From: Gymnodinialimonas ceratoperidinii
GTDB taxonomy: Bacteria; Pseudomonadota; Alphaproteobacteria; Rhodobacterales; Rhodobacteraceae
Assembly (NCBI RefSeq): GCF_019297855.1
Contig: NZ_CP079194.1
Span: 3,273,501-3,337,500, forward strand
Reading direction: 5' to 3'
Length of the DNA: 64,000 nt
The translations under genes were made by a program, and so were the position numbers. A model generated the notes under the pieces. That model was not told the DNA's origin. It saw nothing but the letters and a program-made list of their open reading frames with translations, and did not search any database. Below, in pieces: positions 43,836 to 62,511 of this stretch. Numbering within the stretch: the stretch's first letter is position 1; each line of letters opens with the position of its first letter.

Positions 43836-43912
43836 GGCGGAGTAGCTCAGTTGGTTAGAGCAGCGGAATCATAATCCGCGTGTCGGGGGTTCAAGTCCCT
43901 CCTCCGCTACCA
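43836..43912 (+). tRNA. tRNA-Met (CAT), elongator type
   Basis: A 77-base cloverleaf with encoded CCA. The acceptor stem GGCGGAG pairs with CTCCGCT (first pair G-U), the anticodon stem GCGGA/TCCGC encloses the loop ATCATAA with anticodon CAT, and the T-arm is GGGGGTTCAAGTCCCTC-like. The absence of initiator-type features (mismatched first pair of C-A type, GGG/CCC anticodon stem) and the resemblance to alphaproteobacterial elongator tRNA-Met support the assignment; a tRNA-Ile2 with modified CAT is less likely. Composition of the DNA changes directly after its 3' end, making this a probable island insertion site. Confidence 0.95.
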
Positions 43913-44354
43913 AATTTTCTTATTACGGATAGAGCCTTACAGAGTTCATCGTGCTATGTGCGTTCTGAATTCCTGCCTGTGGGTGCCATATGGGTGCCAT
44001 TTGAGTTAGCTTCGGAAGTAACGCAATGATTATTGTCAGGTCGAATTGAACCACCACAACTTGCCTGCTCATTGCTGGATATGACTCGAATCCGTCCAAA
44101 TTCGGCCCACACCCAACCTTGAGCAAGAGAGCAACGCTAGGCGGCATCGTCACTCACGCGGCCATTGGTGGGCCAGAGCATCATCTCAGGAGAAGCCAAA
44201 GCTGTCCCGCGCGGACAAAGCAATCATAGATCCGTAGCTGGTTTCTAATACAAATCCTCCGCTAGTTAGTCACCAAACCTGTCCCTCTATGGCTGGTGCC
44301 GGACACCCTGAATGTATCTGGCGGACATTGACATTGAGCTGCTACCGTTCAGGT
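43913..44354. other. Non-coding or decayed stretch after the tRNA
   Basis: About 440 bases between the tRNA and the first HNH gene. A 76-codon frame on the minus strand (43923-44153) has no recognisable product. A short duplicated string GGGTGCCAT occurs near 43981-44000. I see no supportable gene; this is probably the left junction of the island. Confidence 0.4.
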
Positions 44355-45083
44355 ATGGTCGAGACACGAAACCCACCTTGGACGCGCGACGAACTTCTCG
44401 TCGCCCTGGACTACTATCTTGACAACACGGACGACTACTTCTCGCCGAAAGGCGAAGGCGTGCTCGAACTAACGGCGAAGATCAGCCAAGTCGCAAAGGC
44501 GCTCGGACTGACTGGTTCCGACACACTGCGCAATGCCAACGGCGTGTCCATGAAACTCCTAAACTTTCGCGCCCACGATCCGAACCATGATACCAAGGGT
44601 TTGAGCCGAGGGAACAAGCTGGAGGAGGTCGTTTGGGCCGAATTTGCCGACAATCCGAAGGCGCTGAAGAAAGTGGTCGCGTCAATCGTGGATGCGACAC
44701 GAGCGGCAATGTCGAATGATGCGCCGGTGCTGCCCGAAGACGACCTGACAGAGGCACCTGAGGGACAATTGCTGACCCGCATACACCGCTACCGGGAGCG
44801 CAATGCTGCAATCGTGAAGCGGAAGAAAGCTTCATACCTGAAACAGCATGGGCACCTGTGTTGCGAGGCCTGCGGATTCGACTTTCAAGCGAATTATGGC
44901 GAACGCGGTTCTGGGTTTATCGAGTGCCACCATTCAAGGCCGATTTCAGAATTTGTAGCAGGTGAAACTACTAAGCTGGTCGATCTTGTCTTGCTTTGCG
45001 CCAACTGTCACCGGATGGTGCACGCAGCACGTCCCTGGTGGACCCTCGAAGAGTTGCGGGCGGCACTAGATACCGGGCAGTAG
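44355..45083 (+). CDS. HNH endonuclease, McrA-like
   Basis: A 242-residue protein with an N-terminal helical domain (PPWTRDELLVALDYYLDN and a segment ending NANGVSMKLLNF) of the kind seen in a group of putative modification-dependent restriction enzymes, and a C-terminal HNH nuclease domain. The zinc and catalytic motifs are CCEAC at 169-173, ECHH at 190-193 and CANCHRMVH at 215-223. The ATG at 44355 is chosen; an upstream start at 44289 adds 22 residues of unlikely composition. It opens the island cargo and is followed by another nuclease-like gene and a second HNH gene. A role in restricting foreign DNA is inference. Confidence 0.82.
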   Translation: MVETRNPPWTRDELLVALDYYLDNTDDYFSPKGEGVLELTAKISQVAKALGLTGSDTLRNANGVSMKLLNFRAHDPNHDTKGLSRGNKLEEVVWAEFADNPKALKKVVASIVDATRAAMSNDAPVLPEDDLTEAPEGQLLTRIHRYRERNAAIVKRKKASYLKQHGHLCCEACGFDFQANYGERGSGFIECHHSRPISEFVAGETTKLVDLVLLCANCHRMVHAARPWWTLEELRAALDTGQ

Positions 45084-46021: not shown

Positions 46022-46699
46022 GTGAACGAGACCAAGCGGTTTATCATTTTCGGGTTATGGTCCCACCACTCGGGAAGTGAAGAGGGGCTAATTCTTAGTA
46101 GAGATTGGGAGAGAAACGCGTCAGGCAGAAGGAACCCCGGCTTCAGCCAATCTGAAGAACACACAAGGCTAGTAGTTGAAGAAGGATATTCACTTCTGAC
46201 TTTCCCAATGTTCGCCAAAGTCGACGAGCACGGAAAAATTCCGGAAGATGAGCCTGTCAAAATTGATCGTTTTGAGCCGATCCTTCAACGCAAATTCTTA
46301 GTTGAGCTTGGTAAAGAATGGTATTCGGTTGAGACTCCTATTCCACCTGCAAATTCTTATGAGCCTTTGATTGTCCAAACATTCGAAGAAGGAGAACAAT
46401 CCATGTTGCTCTCCAAGCGCGTGGAACGCAGCGCCGCCGCGAGGAAGCGATGTCTAGATATACATGGGCATCAATGCTTGGTCTGCAATAAATCAATGTC
46501 TGATCGCTACGGAGAAATGGGCGAAGACGTTATTGATGTTCACCATCTAAACGAGCTATCGCAAACAAATGGAAAATACCTAGTCGATCCAGAGACAGAC
46601 CTCGTTCCGGTTTGCCCTAACTGTCACCGGATGATTCACACTCAGCAACCTGCGCTGAGTCTGGAAGCTGTACGAAAAATACTGACGAAGCTCTGCTGA
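46022..46699 (+). CDS. HNH endonuclease with unknown N-terminal domain
   Basis: A 225-residue protein with clearly A+T-rich coding sequence, unlike the chromosome around the island. Residues 1-130 form a domain I do not recognise (FIIFGLWSHHSGSEEGLI at the start). The C-terminus is an HNH domain: CLVC at 152-155, DVHHLNELS at 172-180, and CPNCHRMIH at 198-206. The initiator is GTG at 46022 because an in-frame stop lies five codons upstream; no good ribosome site is visible, so a later start is possible. It resembles McrA-type modification-dependent nucleases in architecture. Confidence 0.75.
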   Translation: MNETKRFIIFGLWSHHSGSEEGLILSRDWERNASGRRNPGFSQSEEHTRLVVEEGYSLLTFPMFAKVDEHGKIPEDEPVKIDRFEPILQRKFLVELGKEWYSVETPIPPANSYEPLIVQTFEEGEQSMLLSKRVERSAAARKRCLDIHGHQCLVCNKSMSDRYGEMGEDVIDVHHLNELSQTNGKYLVDPETDLVPVCPNCHRMIHTQQPALSLEAVRKILTKLC

Positions 46700-47832: not shown

Positions 47833-49008
47833 ATGTCCTCCTTAGCAGCAGACCTCACTCCCGAAAACATTGCGCTGGAAAAAATCTTCCTTGACCCAAA
47901 CAACCCTCGTTTTGTGGGCACCGACTGGACATTCGTCCCTGATGAGGAGGTGACGCAACTGCCAGTTCAACAGGCAGCTCGTCGACGATTGATCGACCAT
48001 CATGACGTCGGGAAACTTCAATCTGTGATGGAAGCTAATGGCTTCCTGCCAATCGATCGTGTGGTTGTTCGAAAACTTGACGAAAATGGAAATTACGTTG
48101 TTTTGGAAGGTAATCGACGCATTTGCGCGGCTAAAGAAGTCACCGGGTATTACGACAATGGCGACCCAATCCCCCAAGAGATAATGGACACGTTTCAGGA
48201 AATTTCGTGCCTCGTTTATGAAGGCAATGACAACAGTATGAATGCAGCATGGATTTTGCAGGGCCTCCGACACGTCTCAGGAATCTCGGAGTGGCCGGCC
48301 TACAACAAGGCGAAATTGCTGGTTGATCGCATGGAAGCTGACGATTTGACACTGACTCAAGTGGGGAAGAGTTTTGGGCTATCTGCTCATGGTGCGGGAC
48401 AATGGGTTCGGGGGTATTACGCCTTTCAGCAAGCAAAGGAAGTGACCGAGGTCGGCGAGCACATTGACGAGAAAATCTATCCATTTTTCCAAGAGATATT
48501 TGGCCGCAGCAGTATCGCGTTGAAAGAATGGATGCGATGGGATGATGCAAAGAACGAATTTCAGGACTCCGCAGCGCTGAATGAGTTCGTGGGCTGGTTG
48601 TTCCCAGTAGACAGAGTGGAAGGCGATTCAGGCGATTCTTGGCAGGATCCTACAAAAGCGGAAGTTGAGGCCGCGTGGAGCAATAGACGCATTACGAAAC
48701 GCGATAACTTGCGAGAAATATCTTACATGATCTCTGATGCGCCCAAAGAATGGATGTCATTTCGCAGTGGTGCATCGCTTGAGACGGCATACAATACCGC
48801 CGTTTATAACAGCATTGAAGACACTCATGCATCGGAAAAGTCTACCGAAGATCGATTCTTTAAGATCATATCGGACGCTTTGCGTGAATTAAATGAAACC
48901 CCGATATCAGTAATTATGAACTCTGAGAAGAGAGCGAAGCTTCTCCAACTAACGGCGGAAGTAAAGAGTGCAATTAACAATATTGATGATATCAGTGGGA
49001 AGCAATGA
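47833..49008 (+). CDS. ParB/Srx-like domain protein
   Basis: A 391-residue protein whose first 110 residues follow the ParB/sulfiredoxin fold: DPNNPRF at 21-27, a GFLPIDRVVVRKL segment and YVVLEGNRRICAAK with the E-G-N-R-R signature at 92-96. The middle part (about 150-215) may include a helix-turn-helix (LTQVGKSFGLSAHGAGQWV). It is not a partition ParB, since no parA or parS is near. It overlaps the next gene by 4 bases (ATGA at 49005-49008), so the ParB-like protein and the Mrr-like nuclease are made as a pair. By analogy with DUF262/ParB-fold NTPases of GmrSD and SspE it may hydrolyse a nucleotide to gate nuclease action; this is inference. Confidence 0.78.
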   Translation: MSSLAADLTPENIALEKIFLDPNNPRFVGTDWTFVPDEEVTQLPVQQAARRRLIDHHDVGKLQSVMEANGFLPIDRVVVRKLDENGNYVVLEGNRRICAAKEVTGYYDNGDPIPQEIMDTFQEISCLVYEGNDNSMNAAWILQGLRHVSGISEWPAYNKAKLLVDRMEADDLTLTQVGKSFGLSAHGAGQWVRGYYAFQQAKEVTEVGEHIDEKIYPFFQEIFGRSSIALKEWMRWDDAKNEFQDSAALNEFVGWLFPVDRVEGDSGDSWQDPTKAEVEAAWSNRRITKRDNLREISYMISDAPKEWMSFRSGASLETAYNTAVYNSIEDTHASEKSTEDRFFKIISDALRELNETPISVIMNSEKRAKLLQLTAEVKSAINNIDDISGKQ

Positions 49009-49868
49009 AGCCATCAAGACCGCGAATTGTTTCAGCAATATACTCCTTAGCGCCCGATCCCAAGACGCGTTCCATTATGGAGCTGTCGCTCCAAGCGATC
49101 AGGGCTTTCTACGGTAGCGTCGACCGCAAGCAGGAAGAGTTCATTAGCAAGTTCAGGAAATCTATTCTGAACGACTTGCTTGTGTTTGATGATCTTCATC
49201 ACAGGAGCGGCGGCAGTCGCTCTTTCGTTTGCGTGGACACCGGCAAACAACTGGTGCAGTGGCACGGCAAAATATTGCGCAATCCACGGACATTACAGAC
49301 AATCAGGAACCGATCACGCATCTATTATTGGATGAGAAATCTTGATGATCGCCAGTATGAGTGCTTCGGAGCTGCTCTTATGCAATCATTGGGAGCAACG
49401 AAAGTTCATTTGACCCCTCGCGGCAATGAGTTTGGGATCGACTTTCTGGCATTAGTCCCTGCCTACTCTCGAAGCGAATTATTCGTTTCCGGGGGGAGGG
49501 GAATTCGGATCGTAGGGCAATCCAAGCTTTATCAGTCAAAGGTGCCGCGGGATTCCATTCAAAGCTTCAATAGCTTAATGGACTCTATCCGGCACAATAG
49601 ATATGAGATCCAGACGATAGTTCCCGCGTGGTTTCGGAACAGCCCCGCTCCACTCGTTGGTTTGTGGGCAGCGCACAAAGGCTATCAAGAAGGGGCAAGA
49701 ATTATTTCTGGACAAAATGGGTATATACTCCTCGATACATTGATGATGGCCGAGATATTCGGAAGCTCAAAGCCCCTCCAAGGTGTCCGTGATCAATCGG
49801 ACCTGGAAAAGATGATGTGGTCATACTTAGCCGAGTTTGAAAATACCGGGGAAGCACTCGAGGCATAG
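49005..49868 (+). CDS. Mrr-like PD-(D/E)XK restriction endonuclease
   Basis: A 287-residue protein. The C-terminal half carries an Mrr-type catalytic core: YECFGAALMQSLGATKVHL with Glu119, GNEFGIDFLAL with Asp146 and IRIVGQSKLYQSKVP with Gln172-x-Lys174. The E-x26-D-x25-QxK layout is that of Mrr and related type IV restriction nucleases. The N-terminal 110 residues are unassigned and could recognise DNA or bind the partner. It is translationally coupled to the ParB-like gene upstream. Downstream there are only transposase remnants, so the pair looks like a complete two-gene cassette. Confidence 0.78.
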   Translation: MKPSRPRIVSAIYSLAPDPKTRSIMELSLQAIRAFYGSVDRKQEEFISKFRKSILNDLLVFDDLHHRSGGSRSFVCVDTGKQLVQWHGKILRNPRTLQTIRNRSRIYYWMRNLDDRQYECFGAALMQSLGATKVHLTPRGNEFGIDFLALVPAYSRSELFVSGGRGIRIVGQSKLYQSKVPRDSIQSFNSLMDSIRHNRYEIQTIVPAWFRNSPAPLVGLWAAHKGYQEGARIISGQNGYILLDTLMMAEIFGSSKPLQGVRDQSDLEKMMWSYLAEFENTGEALEA

Positions 49869-50508: not shown

Positions 50509-50997
50509 TCAATCCTGACAGACGTGCCCCTGCCAATAGCGATCCCACCGGGCAGCCCAGCCGCCCTCAACCATCGCGCAGTTAATATCGCCGTGACGTG
50601 GTGAGATGCACCATGCCGCAGTGCGGCTCCTGCCAGCAGAACCGTCAGACAAGCATTGAAGCGTAGGGCCATTGACCAACACATGGCCGTGTTGCCCCAC
50701 GCCTATTACTTCACCAAGTATGCTTACCAGCGCATGGCGCGCCGTGAACGGGTCGGCATTCGTGCAGGGGCTGTTAGAGTTACAAGTCCCATCCATCTCT
50801 CGGGTGTTTATTCCCGAAAGCCGTATCCGAGGCCCCTCCGCGCACCAAATGGGTCCATCACCGTCCCATACATGTGTGGGAGTGCAGGCAAATTCCTCTC
50901 CCGCAGGAACGACGGGAACTGAAGCATCAACTGAGGCTCCGGTGACAAAAGAAGAAGAAATCACTGCTAGGAAGAATAGTTGGTTCAAAAGCTTCAT
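50509..50997 (-). CDS. Secreted thermonuclease (SNase)-like protein
   Basis: A 162-residue protein with an N-terminal signal peptide (LLNQLFFLAVISSSFVTGA, quoted in part) and one SNase-like domain. VWDGDGPIWC and PRIRLSGINTREMDG correspond to the calcium-binding Asp strand and to the first catalytic Arg plus Glu of staphylococcal nuclease. The cysteines suggest periplasmic or extracellular disulfides. It would degrade nucleic acids outside the cytoplasm. It lies next to IS remnants and about 2 kb from a decayed excalibur-domain gene, a domain that often accompanies such nucleases. Confidence 0.75.
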   Translation of the reverse strand: MKLLNQLFFLAVISSSFVTGASVDASVPVVPAGEEFACTPTHVWDGDGPIWCAEGPRIRLSGINTREMDGTCNSNSPCTNADPFTARHALVSILGEVIGVGQHGHVLVNGPTLQCLSDGSAGRSRTAAWCISPRHGDINCAMVEGGWAARWDRYWQGHVCQD

Positions 50998-57115: not shown

Positions 57116-57685
57116 TTAGGTCGACTTTGGCCTTCCGGCCACTTTGAGATCAAATCGACCAGTGTACACGATAGCTTCTTCTCGAGCGTCAGAGATGCTT
57201 CTAAAAGACAATGTCGGAAACACCCTTCTGGCTTCTTCTTTCAACATTGCTGCAGGCTTCACCTCTTCACCATTGTTGATGCGCTCGATAATCCAATCCC
57301 GACAACGTGACCTATCAGACAACTTAGATGGCTTACCACCACTAACCTTAGATCGAATATAGGCAGTCAAATCCTCTACGTGAATTCTGGCATCGACTCG
57401 TCCCGGACCATCCAGCCAAAGTGAATTCTTCTCCAATTCGATAGTGAAAAATTCTGCCGCTGCGTCGGTTGCCTTCAACTGTCGCTGACGGTCTCCCGTG
57501 AAGTAAGTCGTCCGCACTTTGCCGCTCTCTAGCGCCAACCGGAGATTGGCCATCGCATCTACTCTCAGAGGCGACTCCTCGTCCCAAACAAACTCCTCAC
57601 TCCAAGCTCTTCCAAAAGAGAGATTTCCCACAATTTGAAATGCTTCGCGAGGATCTACAAACTCAGGTTTAGTTATGCGGCTCAA
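57116..57685 (-). CDS. Hypothetical protein of the integrative module
   Basis: A 189-residue protein of unknown function. The C-terminal part (LKEEARRVFPTLSFRSISDAREEAI, shown in part) resembles short regions found in proteins encoded with P4-like integrases. The initiator appears to be TTG at 57685, with AAGGA about eight bases before it, overlapping the integrase 3' end by 17 bases. That overlap and the strand suggest cotranscription with the integrase. Confidence 0.6.
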   Translation of the reverse strand: MSRITKPEFVDPREAFQIVGNLSFGRAWSEEFVWDEESPLRVDAMANLRLALESGKVRTTYFTGDRQRQLKATDAAAEFFTIELEKNSLWLDGPGRVDARIHVEDLTAYIRSKVSGGKPSKLSDRSRCRDWIIERINNGEEVKPAAMLKEEARRVFPTLSFRSISDAREEAIVYTGRFDLKVAGRPKST

Positions 57686-58850
57686 GTTTATGATCCTTAC
57701 CTAGACTGCCTACGACCTGCGCCCATTGCTCCAACGCATGACGCTTCTCGGTCAAGTACGTATAGCGATTGTATGTTGCCCCAACGCCTGAGACGACCCC
57801 TGATTTGTGGTTCGTTACAGCGTCGATGACGTGCGGCAGCACACCCAGTTTGGCCATCCCTGTTGACGCTGTCCGCCGGAAGTCGTGGAAGCGCCAGTCG
57901 GCTGTGTCGTCGGGCAATGCCGCATCTAAGCGTCGCTTGAGGCGACCGAAGCCAGACACCGGGTTTCTGCCGTTCGTCGTAAACACAAGGTCGCTATCAA
58001 TGAACCGTGGCACTGCATGGAGCAGATCGATCGCAGCCTCTGGAAGCGGCACCATGTGGACCTGCGAGTTCTTCACACGCGCACCGGGTAGCGTCCAGAT
58101 GCCGTCCTCGAAAAAAATTTCCGACCAGCGCATCCCTGCGACTTCGCCACGTCGCTGACCCGTCAGGAGCAGCATCTTGATAAACTGCTCGAACGGATAC
58201 CCTTCCCCCTCAGCAGCGTTCCAGATTGCGATCAACTCTTGGTCCGTCAACACCCGGTCTCTGGCGTATTCTCGGCTCGGGGGCTTGAGGGCCGCAATCG
58301 GAGAGACTTCAATCATGCCCCGGTCAACGCACCAGTTCATGAGCTTCTTGATGGCGGCCAGTGCACGGTTCGCTCGTGTCGGCGTGCCACTTGCAATGAT
58401 AGAGTCGAGAACGGCGACAACGTCGCGGCGTCTGATTTCATCAATGGGCCTGTCAAACAGGGACCGGAACTTCCTGAGGATGCTTTGTGATCCTCGCCAG
58501 TCTTTGGTGTTTGGTTTCGCGTACAGGTCGATGAATTGATCAACGACCTCACGGAGTGTAGGAGTTGCCTCAACTGGCAAATCGTCTTTTGCCGCGTATA
58601 CCCCCAGTGCAACATCCCGCGCGATCTGCGTCGCTTTCTGCCGAGCCTCAGCTAGCGAAATCAAAGGATACGTCCCGACCGCAATTCGAAGGCGGCGGCC
58701 GTCCACACGGCACTTGTAGTCGAAGACCTTCCTCCCGGTCCTGTACACACGCACGCCGAAGCCTTGCATCTTGGCATCGCGAACCTCGATACGGTTCTTC
58801 TCACCAGGATCAAGACTATTAAGCAACTTGGTGGTTAGGACTTTCTTCAT
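57669..58850 (-). CDS. P4-type tyrosine integrase
   Basis: A 393-residue integrase with an N-terminal arm-binding DUF4102-like domain (RIEVRDAKMQGFGVRVYRTG), a core-binding domain (about 100-195) and a catalytic domain with Arg233 (LLTGQRRGEV), Lys260, His322-x2-Arg325 (FHDFRRT), His348 and Tyr360 (ATYNRYTY). The set is complete. It is the probable recombinase of the island. It reads leftward, with its 5' end toward the right edge, where inverted repeats lie. P4-type integrases usually use tRNA genes; the tRNA-Met lies at the opposite end. Confidence 0.93.
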   Translation of the reverse strand: MKKVLTTKLLNSLDPGEKNRIEVRDAKMQGFGVRVYRTGRKVFDYKCRVDGRRLRIAVGTYPLISLAEARQKATQIARDVALGVYAAKDDLPVEATPTLREVVDQFIDLYAKPNTKDWRGSQSILRKFRSLFDRPIDEIRRRDVVAVLDSIIASGTPTRANRALAAIKKLMNWCVDRGMIEVSPIAALKPPSREYARDRVLTDQELIAIWNAAEGEGYPFEQFIKMLLLTGQRRGEVAGMRWSEIFFEDGIWTLPGARVKNSQVHMVPLPEAAIDLLHAVPRFIDSDLVFTTNGRNPVSGFGRLKRRLDAALPDDTADWRFHDFRRTASTGMAKLGVLPHVIDAVTNHKSGVVSGVGATYNRYTYLTEKRHALEQWAQVVGSLGKDHKLEPHN

Positions 58851-59115: not shown

Positions 59116-62100
59116 CTACTTCGCGCGTCGCGCGAGGCCGTCCTGGATGGTCTTGATTTCATCTTCAAGGTGCGGGCCACGATAGACAAACGACGTTTCG
59201 TGCCGGGCGAATTGCCCGTTCCGATCCGCGCTGAGCCAGTTGAATGATCCAACACAGAGAAGCGCCTTGTCGACGGTCACGATCTTGCTGTGGAGTTTCG
59301 GAACCCGTTGAACCGCGACACCGATCGCGGAAAGCCTGCGTTCAACAGCTTCCATCTGGCTCAGCCCACCTGCGGCCGGGCCGGTGTTCAGCAGAGGATC
59401 GGCAACGACTTGGATGTCTGCCCCACGCTGGCGAGCGGACGCCATAGCGTCTAATAGACCAGTCCGCTCGATCGTTCCGGCAACGACCCACGGGCTGACG
59501 ATCATGTATCTCCGCCCCTCGCCCTTTAGTGCATTCAAGAGGAAGGCATCGTGCTCAGCGGAGTGCTGAATCATCTCGATTTGAGCGTCGCCGCGGGTCA
59601 GGTCCTCGCGCGGCTCCATGGCAAAATCCAACGCCTTGCCCTTGGCCGCAAGGAATTCGGACAGCAATGCGCGTGGAGAACCGCTGCGGGCGGTGGCCAG
59701 GATGTCCATATCGCCGAAGACGAGGCAGCTATCCTTGGCCCTCGACACTGTCACGTTCAACATGCTGGGCGAGGCATCGATGAAACCGCCATCCGCGTGT
59801 TTGGAGTAGACTGGCGAGAAGATCACCACGGGCCGTTCGGCCCCTTGCAGCGCGTGCACGGTGCCGATGGTCATGCCTTCACGACCGGACACGGTGATGC
59901 CGCGTGCGGTGCAGGCGTCCCGGATGGCGCGCACTTGCTGGCCAAAGGGCGTGACGAGCCCGACAACCTGCTCAAGCGGAAAACCGTAGCGGCCTTCCAG
60001 ACGTGCGCGGTTTTCTTCCAGCCATGCTGCGATGGTATGGGCCTCGACGGGGTTGGCGCGGCTGCCACTGTTCGAGAAGGCACGGCCTTCGACATGCAGG
60101 TAACCCAGTGCCGGAAGGGGCGCGTTCGCCGGTGCGGGGCCGCGCATCGGGCGCAGTTTGCCCTTGTAGCATAAGGCATTGCTGAAACCGATGATCTCAT
60201 CATGGCAACGGCGATGTTCAAATAGGTAGAGCCCGCGATCCAGCTCGGGCCAGGGCGCGACTTTGCAGGCCTGCTGCGCAAGACGCATGGCGCTGCCGTC
60301 GGTTGATCGGATGCCGCTCGCGGACAAGCGATCGGGCACTTCCTCGCCGTCGATCACCCCGCTGTCCTTGAGATTACCAATATCGACAGGGCCGGGCACG
60401 GCCGAGATCGGCTCGATCTGCTGCGTGTCGCCGATGACCAGCGCGCGTTTGGCCAAGGCGAACGAGGCGCCAGCGACCTCGGGCAGGACTTGCCCAGCTT
60501 CATCGACGATTAGCAGGTCGATGAAATTATAAAGGCTGTCGGACGCGAACTTGCCGCCTTGGTAGCGGCTGCACGACAGCTTCTTCGGCAGGCTGGCAAA
60601 GGTGGCCACGGCGCAGGGCGTCAACATCATGCGACGTTGCCAGCGTGGTTCGACGGCCTTTCGCCCGGTCTTTTCATGCGACGTGGTGATGGTGCCGAGA
60701 TCGGCTTCCATTGCCATCAACCACCGTCCTTCCCAGTAGTGGGTCGCGAGCAGGAACAAGTCAAAACGGGTCCCGAGATCAGCCCGCCGCTCCAGCGCGT
60801 CCAAGTCATCCGAGCCCCCGAAGGCCTCAGCCGCCTCGCGCCAAGCCAATTCGCTGGCCGTGGCTTGCTGTCTCAGGTCCTCTGCTCGGGCCAAGAGCTG
60901 TTTGGCAGAGGCAAGGCTCTGCTTCCCGTGTCTCAGGGCATCCGCGACCCGCGTTTCGATATCCTCGACACAGGTCATGTCTTGCAACCCGTCCAGCCGA
61001 TCTCCGATAGTCAGTCGCGCCTTCAAAGCGCGCTTGTGCTTGACCGAAGAAATGAACCCGAAAAGGCCGGTGAGCCAAGATTCGGAGGCAAAATAGTGAT
61101 CCAGCGCCGCGCGTGCGGCGGCCAGTCGATCCGCCTCTTCTTGTCTGGCGCGGAGCGTATCCGCGCGACGGGTCTGTTCTGCGCCCGGATCTTCGCCCAG
61201 CTCGGATAAGAGGGCGGCGGCGCAGGTTCTGCGGCGGCCCAAAGCCTCGTCGACCTGTCGGAGCTTGTTGGCCTCCTCGCTCAGCCGATCTCGGAGCAGC
61301 GCGACAAACCCGGCGACGTCTGCGTCCTTTACACCCGGGAATGCCTTGCCAGCCGCGTCCAGCCAAGCGGCCCGTGCGCGTTCGACATAGGCCACGGACT
61401 CACATTCCGTCTGGAAGGCCTCCGTTTGATAGCGCTGCGCAGCCTCCATGCGCCGGGAATGCGACGGGAGAAACATCCCAAAGCTCTTGATGTCCGGCAG
61501 CCAGCGCCCGGCAAATACGCCGTCGCCCACTGCGAAATCCTTACCAAAGGCGTCGATGATGTTGGTGACCGCCTGGTTGTTGGACGAGGCCGCGACGATC
61601 ACAGGCGGCTCTCCCCCATCGAGAGCAGCCTTTACCCACAGCCCTGCCACAGCGGAGAGGAGCATCGTCGTTTTGCCGGTCCCTGGCGGGCCGTTCACCG
61701 CGATCACCTCGCCCGGTTTTGCGACGTCGAGCCAGGCCAGGACATGCCGTTGTTGTTCGGCCAAGGGGAAGTGTGGATTCGAATGCCCGAGGCGCCGATA
61801 GAATTCCTTCTCGATGCCGTGGTCCATCGCGGTCTCAGGGCGATGGGGCAACGCAATCTGGTGTAGAAGCGGCGTGTCCCGTTCATTGGCTAGCAGGCTG
61901 TCGTAAAGATCCAGCATCCCGCGCACCGTTGCATCGGCGCCTTCCGATACCTCAATGAATCCGCTTCCGGTCGGCAGATACTCCGCCTCGTCAGAGGGCC
62001 AGGCCGGCGCCAGGGCGTCGACCATCTGACGGCAATGCTTGCGGTAGTCCTGCCACCTGTCGGCCGTCGCCATTTCAGGAAGGGGCGTCGTCGTGAGGAA

Positions 62101-62511
62101 ATCGTCGAGCGCCTCCACCGATCCAAGGGCAAAGGCACCCCTGGGCAAGGGCGTCAGCAGGTCGCGCGCAATGGTATTGCGAGTCGGCACGATCCGCCCC
62201 GCCCGATCCACGATGCCCTCGGTGACCACGGGGGCGACAATTTCTGGCATCCCATCGGCGCGCGACGCGGCATGTGAGGCTTTGCGGGCGGTCACCAAGG
62301 GCCAGAAGCGAACCGAAATCGTTGTAGAACCATCCTTTCCGCTGAACAGTGTCTGGACCAGCTGCTTGGGAAGGCTACCCGTCTTCAGCGCTTCATTCGG
62401 GAGCACCAGAAATCTTTTTCGATCCGCAGTCCGAAACGTCCCTTCACCAAGCGCACCATCCGCCAGAGATGTCCGCCAATACCGCAGGACGTTGGACAGT
62501 AGTGCGGCCAT
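59116..62511 (-). CDS. SF1 helicase fused to C-terminal PLD nuclease (Mokosh type II MkoC-like)
   Basis: A 1131-residue protein with an SF1 helicase/ATPase core: Walker A GPPGTGKT at 274-281, a long insertion, Walker B LLIVDEAGQV at about 670, GDTQQIEP just after, and TIGTVHALQGAE with VTVSRAKDSCLVFGD as the late motifs. The C-terminus is a phospholipase-D-type nuclease with His1074-x-Lys1076-x4-Asp1081 and GSFNW (HKD motif). Helicase of the COG1112 kind plus one PLD in a single chain is the architecture of the type II Mokosh anti-phage protein. The coding sequence is GC-rich, unlike the island to its left. The assignment is by architecture, not by comparison. Confidence 0.75.
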   Translation of the reverse strand: MAALLSNVLRYWRTSLADGALGEGTFRTADRKRFLVLPNEALKTGSLPKQLVQTLFSGKDGSTTISVRFWPLVTARKASHAASRADGMPEIVAPVVTEGIVDRAGRIVPTRNTIARDLLTPLPRGAFALGSVEALDDFLTTTPLPEMATADRWQDYRKHCRQMVDALAPAWPSDEAEYLPTGSGFIEVSEGADATVRGMLDLYDSLLANERDTPLLHQIALPHRPETAMDHGIEKEFYRRLGHSNPHFPLAEQQRHVLAWLDVAKPGEVIAVNGPPGTGKTTMLLSAVAGLWVKAALDGGEPPVIVAASSNNQAVTNIIDAFGKDFAVGDGVFAGRWLPDIKSFGMFLPSHSRRMEAAQRYQTEAFQTECESVAYVERARAAWLDAAGKAFPGVKDADVAGFVALLRDRLSEEANKLRQVDEALGRRRTCAAALLSELGEDPGAEQTRRADTLRARQEEADRLAAARAALDHYFASESWLTGLFGFISSVKHKRALKARLTIGDRLDGLQDMTCVEDIETRVADALRHGKQSLASAKQLLARAEDLRQQATASELAWREAAEAFGGSDDLDALERRADLGTRFDLFLLATHYWEGRWLMAMEADLGTITTSHEKTGRKAVEPRWQRRMMLTPCAVATFASLPKKLSCSRYQGGKFASDSLYNFIDLLIVDEAGQVLPEVAGASFALAKRALVIGDTQQIEPISAVPGPVDIGNLKDSGVIDGEEVPDRLSASGIRSTDGSAMRLAQQACKVAPWPELDRGLYLFEHRRCHDEIIGFSNALCYKGKLRPMRGPAPANAPLPALGYLHVEGRAFSNSGSRANPVEAHTIAAWLEENRARLEGRYGFPLEQVVGLVTPFGQQVRAIRDACTARGITVSGREGMTIGTVHALQGAERPVVIFSPVYSKHADGGFIDASPSMLNVTVSRAKDSCLVFGDMDILATARSGSPRALLSEFLAAKGKALDFAMEPREDLTRGDAQIEMIQHSAEHDAFLLNALKGEGRRYMIVSPWVVAGTIERTGLLDAMASARQRGADIQVVADPLLNTGPAAGGLSQMEAVERRLSAIGVAVQRVPKLHSKIVTVDKALLCVGSFNWLSADRNGQFARHETSFVYRGPHLEDEIKTIQDGLARRAK

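Follow-up and report, generated by a model that had tools for sequence, protein, structure and literature searches.

A ParB-like protein and an Mrr-family PD-(D/E)xK nuclease are encoded by two adjacent genes in Gymnodinialimonas ceratoperidinii, on a 64,000-nucleotide stretch of contig NZ_CP079194.1 (positions 3,273,501 to 3,337,500) that is referred to here as the window. As the first-pass annotation of this DNA had described, the genes are coupled by an ATGA stop/start overlap; both open reading frames (ORFs), P0001 for the ParB-like protein and P0002 for the nuclease, are intact, and four bases are shared. The best explanation, given with moderate confidence, is that the pair forms a DNase module of two components directed at foreign DNA, where a ParB-fold protein under nucleotide control would license an Mrr DNase.

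Conservation and co-divergence of the two genes

Genome contigs were scanned with 25 relatives, and stretches coding for LDPNNPRF or A[GA]QWVRGY were fetched, which gave 62 loci; relatives with neither pattern are missing from this set. At 48 of the 57 assessable loci an Mrr-family gene directly follows the ParB-like gene on the same strand, and with so many relatives keeping this arrangement, the two genes are not neighbours by chance. The gap between the genes lies between -25 and +20 bases in 42 of the 48 paired loci. The remaining 14 loci comprise nine intact ParB-like genes without an Mrr gene, four broken or cut ParB-like ORFs and one contig end.

The assignment of downstream proteins to the nuclease family was made on a set of 72, in which the window copy stands beside loci found by other searches and distant ParB relatives whose partners differ. 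An iterative profile placed 55 of these in the family, and Pfam Mrr_cat, which is independent of the family profiles, recognized 48 of the 72. The downstream protein of L019 was rejected as a family member, having neither the D nor the QxK motif, and was removed before the final counts. A short downstream ORF at L045 fell in the family by an earlier profile and outside it in the final count, so that L045 is counted as unpaired, and L008 was scored as paired though its nuclease is split into two ORFs. Three duplicates of the window locus, one Wphi duplicate, L069 and L070 were dropped before alignment A3 was made, and the ParB copies of L016 and L058, together with L064 (a duplicate of L004), were also removed by hand before that step.

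The ParB-like and Mrr proteins co-diverge, with a Mantel r of 0.895 over 48 pairs and none of 5000 permutations as high; the value is 0.919 within the window's clade (18 pairs) and 0.911 in the rest (30 pairs). These pairs come from 34 loci common to the ParB-like alignment A4 and the nuclease alignment A5 (L019 excluded), 11 loci added to them, the window copy, and two pairs from databases (P0007/P0127 and P0008/P0128) matched solely through the equal length of their longest contigs. The refuting condition set in the first-pass annotation, homologues of the two genes seldom occurring together, did not hold; the locus counts and the co-divergence support a conserved unit. Within the window's clade conservation is higher in the ParB-like protein, with a mean identity of 0.47 vs 0.33 for the Mrr protein.

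Paired loci occur in the Pseudomonadota, Bacillota, Bacteroidota, Chloroflexota, Acidobacteriota, Verrucomicrobiota and Nitrospirota, and the archaeal loci include one that is paired (L037) and two that are not (L018 and L019). Locally the family is rare: of 292 genomes from the order, 8 gave any match, a count that includes the window's own genome, and two of them gave a strong one, and the ParB-like family has no match in the seven other genomes listed for the genus. The flanking gene of L004, searched in 13 family genomes, gave two matches. A 99% identical ParB-like protein (P0003) is listed from MMETSP, which we take to be a transcriptome source, and hints at transcription in some marine sample.

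Homology and motifs of the two proteins

P0001 aligns with Pfam ParB_N at E=0.0037 and 17.7 bits, under the curated cut-off of 26.3. A family profile was derived from alignment A4, which contains 85 ParB-like sequences, the window copy included. In a single hhalign comparison this profile matched the host chromosomal ParB over residues 9-245 (E=5e-5, probability 67%), pairing EGNRRICAAK with AGERRWRAAQ and LDPNNPR with SPNPDQPR, with the helix-turn-helix (HTH) regions coinciding. By this comparison P0001 has the ParB N-domain and HTH of a ParABS ParB. PDB matches of the profile at E<0.01 are the nucleoid occlusion protein entries 7nfu and 7ng0 and the ParB-like 6ryk (E 0.002-0.005), all of which we take to be cytidine triphosphate binders; a narrower ParB-like alignment, A1, gave no PDB match at E<=0.1. 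Weaker PDB matches (E 0.16-1) were disregarded for both the ParB-like and the nuclease profiles.

The residues invariant in all 85 ParB-like sequences are L20-D-P-N-N, R26, G70, E92-G-N-R-R96, G144, R146 and W154. The ParB-type EGNRR signature claimed for the first gene is present and kept in all of them, and a proposed check of the nucleotide pocket comes out in favour at the sequence level only. EGNRR was not used as a fetch pattern for the 62 genome loci, whereas the invariance of LDPNNPRF is partly built in because the loci were fetched partly through it. LDPNNPRF matches what is presumably the ParB motif PNPxQPR, and QGLRH may correspond to ENxQR, which we likewise take to be a ParB motif. 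Sulfiredoxin was rejected as an identity for this protein: the position of the catalytic cysteine, which we assume to be that of the GCHR motif, is N94 in EGNRR, and is asparagine in 85 of 85 sequences. Measured against 17 relatives from the window's clade, residues 261-391 are the most variable (mean identity 0.274, the remainder 0.49-0.60).

P0002 matches Pfam Mrr_cat at E=1.9e-6 and 28.4 bits, over the cut-off of 21, and the E...D...QxK core previously claimed for the second gene is found as E119, D146 and Q172-x-K174, the PD-QxK catalytic arrangement of Mrr. The top PDB match of the nuclease-family profile is 4f0p ("Restriction endonuclease", E=1.3e-6, via the D..QxK core), which we take to be MspJI; further matches are to LlaBIII (E=0.014) and to the PHD finger protein 2dme (E=0.0057), the latter probably by chance. 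Residue counts for the nuclease were made over the 56 sequences of A5, from which the paired locus L039 is absent. Mean identity to the window copy among the same 17 relatives is 0.431 for residues 106-200 and 0.309 for residues 201-287. The variable parts of the two proteins, nuclease residues 1-105 and ParB-like residues 261-391, presumably serve target recognition or partner contact.

Genomic surroundings of the pair

The pair probably lies in an integrated element of about 32.6 kb whose ends are tRNA-Met repeats, because the last 45 bases of tRNA-Met (43868-43912) recur exactly at G000:C1:3349979-3350023, equivalent to window positions 76479-76523 and hence beyond the window's end. An empty site was sought with the flank past the far repeat, which had no blastn match in the downstream flanks of three same-genus genomes. 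In the region from 44 to 59 kb of the window, GC content is 0.47-0.59, down from 0.65-0.66. The nuclease-rich island reported earlier is borne out by two HNH proteins and a DUF6998 protein just upstream and by the AT-richer DNA after tRNA-Met (Table 1). AAA_25 genes and an integrase (Pfam) occur in the same stretch as the pair. Five PF13614 matches, as sought for ParA-type genes, were found in the genome, none of them between G000:C1:3317413 and 3350023, and P0001 has no adjacent ParA ATPase of the ParABS kind. A 42-base repeat, 76% identical, is common to the two upstream HNH genes. A 162-aa ORF (50509-50997, minus strand) recurs as a 93% identical copy (L200:14254-14742, minus strand) at a distance of about 20 kb within this probable element.

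Table 1. Features of the gene pair and its surroundings, in window coordinates
Feature	Position	Strand	Observation
ParB-like gene P0001, 391 aa	47833..49008	+	Intact ORF; PADLOC PDC-M38A, hhalign to host ParB
LDPNNPRF, residues 20-27, counterpart of ParB PNPxQPR region	47890..47913	+	L20, D21, P22, N23, N24 and R26 identical in 85/85
EGNRR, residues 92-96, counterpart of ParB GERR nucleotide motif	48106..48120	+	Identical in 85/85; aligned to host GERR
QGLRH, residues 143-147, candidate counterpart of ParB ENxQR	48259..48273	+	G144 and R146 85/85; H147 82/85
ParB-type HTH, residues 172-195	48346..48417	+	Aligned to HTH of host ParB
ATGA stop/start overlap, 4 bases, coupling P0001 and P0002	49005..49008	+	
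Mrr-family PD-(D/E)xK nuclease gene P0002, 287 aa	49005..49868	+	Intact ORF; Pfam Mrr_cat
Variable N-terminal region of nuclease, residues 1-105	49005..49319	+	Mean identity 0.206 to 17 window-clade relatives
E119, first acidic core residue	49359..49361	+	E in 49/56 aligned nucleases
D146 of nuclease core	49440..49442	+	56/56
QxK (Q172, K174) of nuclease core	49518..49526	+	56/56
tRNA-Met	43836-43912		Precedes the pair's stretch
HNH protein	44289-45083	+	Just upstream of pair
DUF6998 protein	45318		Between the two HNH genes; weak match to methyl-directed Type II enzyme model (PADLOC)
HNH protein	46022-46699	+	Just upstream of pair
Integrase-like ORF, weaker	51369		Under Pfam cut-off
Integrase, clear	57669-58850		
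Mokosh-type MkoC gene	59116-62511	-	PADLOC, 1218 bits; about 9 kb from pair, same probable element

Across the family, the nearest two ORFs on each side of 30 loci (120 ORFs) matched 184 PADLOC families at E<=1e-20, a count of families and not of proteins, vs none for 118 control ORFs from 20 arbitrarily picked regions of other genomes. These neighbour scans used a simple longest-ORF caller and left out ORFs longer than 700 aa, and the controls had no taxon matching. Among the 25 commonest families listed, the DndD and PbeC models are the most frequent, with four members each that are perhaps the same proteins; DndD was found in four of the 120 ORFs by PADLOC and DndE in two by Pfam. In the window's clade (131 ORFs, 14 loci), the matches listed include one Type I methyltransferase model (2), mad3 (2), RT-Toprim (1) and a specificity subunit (1).

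One branch of the family is associated with DNA phosphorothioation. Visual inspection of the gene maps of L023, L031, L036 and L040 identified DndB, DndC, DndD and DndE, which served as queries against the 62 loci, and DndC or DndD relatives were found near eight of these, namely the four query donors and L022, L056, L058 and L060. Six of the eight fall in a single seven-member clade of the ParB tree with 100/100 support, which is separate from the window's clade and not its nearest sister. The seventh member, L039, has no Dnd gene in its available flank; L056 lies outside this clade, and L058 is not in the tree. A nuclease accompanies the ParB-like gene at L022, L023, L031, L036 and L040, while L060, L056 and L058 are unpaired. 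The first acidic core residue is missing in all five Dnd-linked nucleases of A5 (leucine in four, histidine in one) and in 2 of the 51 others. From these sequences, the Dnd-linked clade may work for phosphorothioate systems, and its active site may be altered. At L058:8848-12364, in a deltaproteobacterial metagenome-assembled genome, three family ParB-like genes stand in tandem, with a DndD relative further on.

The Dnd modification genes that accompany this other clade are not found with the window copy. The host genome has no DndC match, its only DndD match reaches 20.2 bits vs a cut-off of 245.85, and it has no match to PF00145 (C5-cytosine methylase), the search having covered these modification families and no others. 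Dependence of the window pair on host-made phosphorothioate or C5-cytosine methylation was accordingly rejected.

Proposed function and comparison with known systems

In the proposed mechanism, P0001 would be a nucleotide-dependent DNA-binding sensor or clamp, with an N-domain carrying the pocket motif followed by a ParB-type HTH, and P0002 would be the cutter of the module. Once the ParB-like protein had loaded on invading DNA, the state of its nucleotide, bound or hydrolysed, would license the Mrr nuclease to cut. The pair would thus be expected to bind and hydrolyse nucleotide, form a complex, cut DNA in response to a mark or other foreign feature and protect against phage. In its favour stand the intact neighbouring genes, the domain homologies, the conserved pocket and catalytic motifs, the frequent pairing and co-divergence, the clade beside Dnd genes, the kinship of the ParB half with PD-lambda-5_A, the PADLOC matches around the family, and the Mokosh-type gene in the window's probable element. 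This scheme is modelled on SspE and DndI, where, according to excerpts of PMC13251355 and PMC11662687, a ParB-fold NTPase reacts to phosphorothioate DNA and, through hydrolysis, governs the HNH nuclease attached to it. ParB/Srx proteins of conflict systems are also described, in an excerpt of PMC5512222, as DNases regulated by nucleoside triphosphates. As a first guess by analogy, the mark read in the standalone clades could be phage base modification, because modified DNA is the target of EcoKMrr and MspJI (PMC12707154, in the portion available). The interpretation in the first-pass annotation, in which the ParB-like protein senses a nucleotide or a DNA modification and licenses the nuclease, is partly supported; the modification-sensing idea is plausible for the Dnd-linked clade because that clade sits beside Dnd genes.

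Several observations weigh against the two-component DNase module. The ParB_N score is below the Pfam cut-off and the hhalign probability for host ParB is 67%, and 9 of the 57 assessable ParB-like genes have no Mrr partner. Many of the 48 paired nucleases went into the very profile that scored them and so match by construction, which leaves the Pfam count as the independent one. Dnd loci account for much of the defence enrichment; the neighbourhood of the window's clade is only modestly defence-rich, its listed matches falling on few proteins, and no modification gene was recognized next to the pair in the window. Finally, the loss of the residue equivalent to E119 may mean that the Dnd-linked nucleases are altered or inactive.

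It is unlikely that the ParB-like protein is instead an autoregulator that represses the operon through its HTH, with the Mrr protein alone acting as a Type IV restriction enzyme. Its HTH does align with that of ParB, DndB is claimed to be an ATP-dependent transcriptional regulator (excerpt of PMC10853773), and single-gene Mrr enzymes are known (excerpt of PMC12707154). However, the ParB-like protein is better conserved than the nuclease in the window's clade, its pocket motif is fully conserved, and the hhalign probability to DndB-like proteins is 0; the presence of the same ParB family in PDC-M38A and PD-lambda-5_A also points to an active component more than to a repressor. Tight coupling, co-divergence and a place on a probable mobile element would fit a toxin-antitoxin-like or addiction pair, in which a toxic Mrr nuclease is silenced by the ParB-like protein until infection or loss of the element, and DndI is described as harming cells without modification (PMC11662687, in part). 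Such an arrangement is judged quite unlikely, given that the upstream partner is the larger one, has the pocket motif and also occurs beside other partners, unlike a dedicated antitoxin.

A role in maintenance or replication of the mobile element, with a partition- or recombination-like ParB, an accessory nuclease and no part in defence, is very improbable. ParB homology and the presence of AAA_25 and integrase genes in that stretch are consistent with it, but none of the genome's five PF13614 matches falls within the probable element, and the surroundings of the whole family are enriched in defence profiles relative to the control, though those of the window's clade only thinly.

Beyond the DNase module itself, a broader reading is put forward tentatively, at somewhat less than even likelihood. 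The EGNRR ParB family may be a reusable nucleotide-gated sensor of foreign DNA joined to various effectors (an Mrr nuclease, a divergent Mrr-like QC protein, an ATPase or an adenine methylase), the ParB-Mrr pair being an unrecognized restriction system of which one clade would form a Dnd restriction arm while the window's clade works alone. If these proposals are right, a widespread two-gene system would be added to the ParB-fold NTPase/nuclease systems, outside the DUF262 group, for which this kind of control was worked out; several gene pairs would be linked through one shared sensor protein, and phosphorothioate modification would gain an extra restriction partner. The clades allow a direct test of DNA-mark reading, in that Dnd-linked pairs should need phosphorothioates and standalone pairs should not.

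The earlier statement that no named system has this exact pair stands within the sources covered. PADLOC has no model spanning both genes, and the pair is unnamed in the PMC full-text literature searched, a scope that does not extend to supplements, most subscription papers and preprints, DefenseFinder or REBASE. No ParB-Mrr pair is named in the available portions of PMC12839542, PMC10952713 and PMC9122126, the main text of PMC13092281 contains neither "ParB" nor "Mrr", and the term "PDC-M38" is absent from the PMC full texts searched.

The nearest PADLOC model, PDC-M38A, belongs to the phage-defence candidate PDC-M38 (PDLC04607 and PDC-M38B) and covers the ParB half only: residues 11-325 of P0001 align with positions 10-313 of its 715 (E=8.2e-48), and P0002 has no PADLOC match at E<=1. 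The A protein of PDC-M38 starts with the same ParB-like family, and a smaller overlapping gene comes next in L072-L075. However, against the 391 aa of P0001, the A profile has 715 positions and the full members in L072-L075 have 724-731 aa, and an ATP-binding motif can be read by eye in the C-terminal half of proteins of this type (L072 and L075). Four downstream proteins, presumed to be those of L072-L075, match PDC-M38B, a family to which P0002 does not belong. Identity with PDC-M38 was rejected, as the match ends at position 313 of 715, within the N-terminal half, and P0001 has no AAA domain.

Residues 9-125 of P0001 match the PADLOC PD-Lambda-5_A models (E to 1.9e-12), and the proteins upstream of seven PD-Lambda-5_B genes align with the ParB-like profile over residues 2-262 (hhalign probability 99.8). 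PD-lambda-5 is reported to resist phages in an excerpt of PMC9519451. Its upstream proteins are longer (448-553 aa) and its partner is a D12 adenine methylase, not a nuclease. Among 40 partner proteins hand-picked from downstream genes (A6), seven are D12 methylases and 33 match no methylase model. The pair was rejected as PD-lambda-5, as its downstream gene encodes an Mrr_cat protein and the A-family match is confined to the N-terminal part. The hhalign sets used for such comparisons were selected on length, partner or visual inspection instead of a profile, and comprised PDC-M38-like (five viral-contig proteins of 730-762 aa), PD-lambda-5-like (seven) and DndB-like (four) proteins.

ParB-like proteins of the phage Wphi gp98-gp96 kind align with the ParB-like family over nearly their full length (hhalign probability 100), and their partners are distantly related to the P0002 family (probability 95.6, E=1.3e-8). 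These partners differ in having an FE...GDGGxD...QC-type pattern and no Pfam or PADLOC match, and in Wphi itself a cytosine methylase adjoins the pair (L102:96-2331). An IMG/VR search, in which 80 of 99 loci were kept, returned Wphi-like pairs in many of the loci among L128-L187, an Mrr partner by profile in 5 of the 80 (one of which, L110, resembles the L015 contig) and a ParB-like protein longer than 700 aa in 13.

With the Mrr/MspJI Type IV enzymes the pair shares the PD-QxK catalytic domain and the top PDB profile match, 4f0p; it differs in its conserved ParB-like neighbour and in having no SRA match at E<=0.1 (Pfam). The control of a nuclease by a ParB-fold NTPase recalls GmrSD, SspE and DndI, as these are described in excerpts of PMC11662687, PMC13251355 and PMC12373910. 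Those systems combine DUF262 (DGQQR) with HNH/DUF1524, neither of which is found in the pair, vs EGNRR and Mrr in separate genes here. The likening of P0001 to DUF262 or DndB-like proteins in the first-pass annotation did not hold, and membership in either family was rejected: P0001 has no DUF262 match at E<=0.1 (Pfam), and the ParB-like profile compared with four DndB-like proteins gave E=0.91 in addition to the zero probability. The recognizable relatives of P0001 are instead the ParB halves of PDC-M38A and PD-lambda-5_A in PADLOC.

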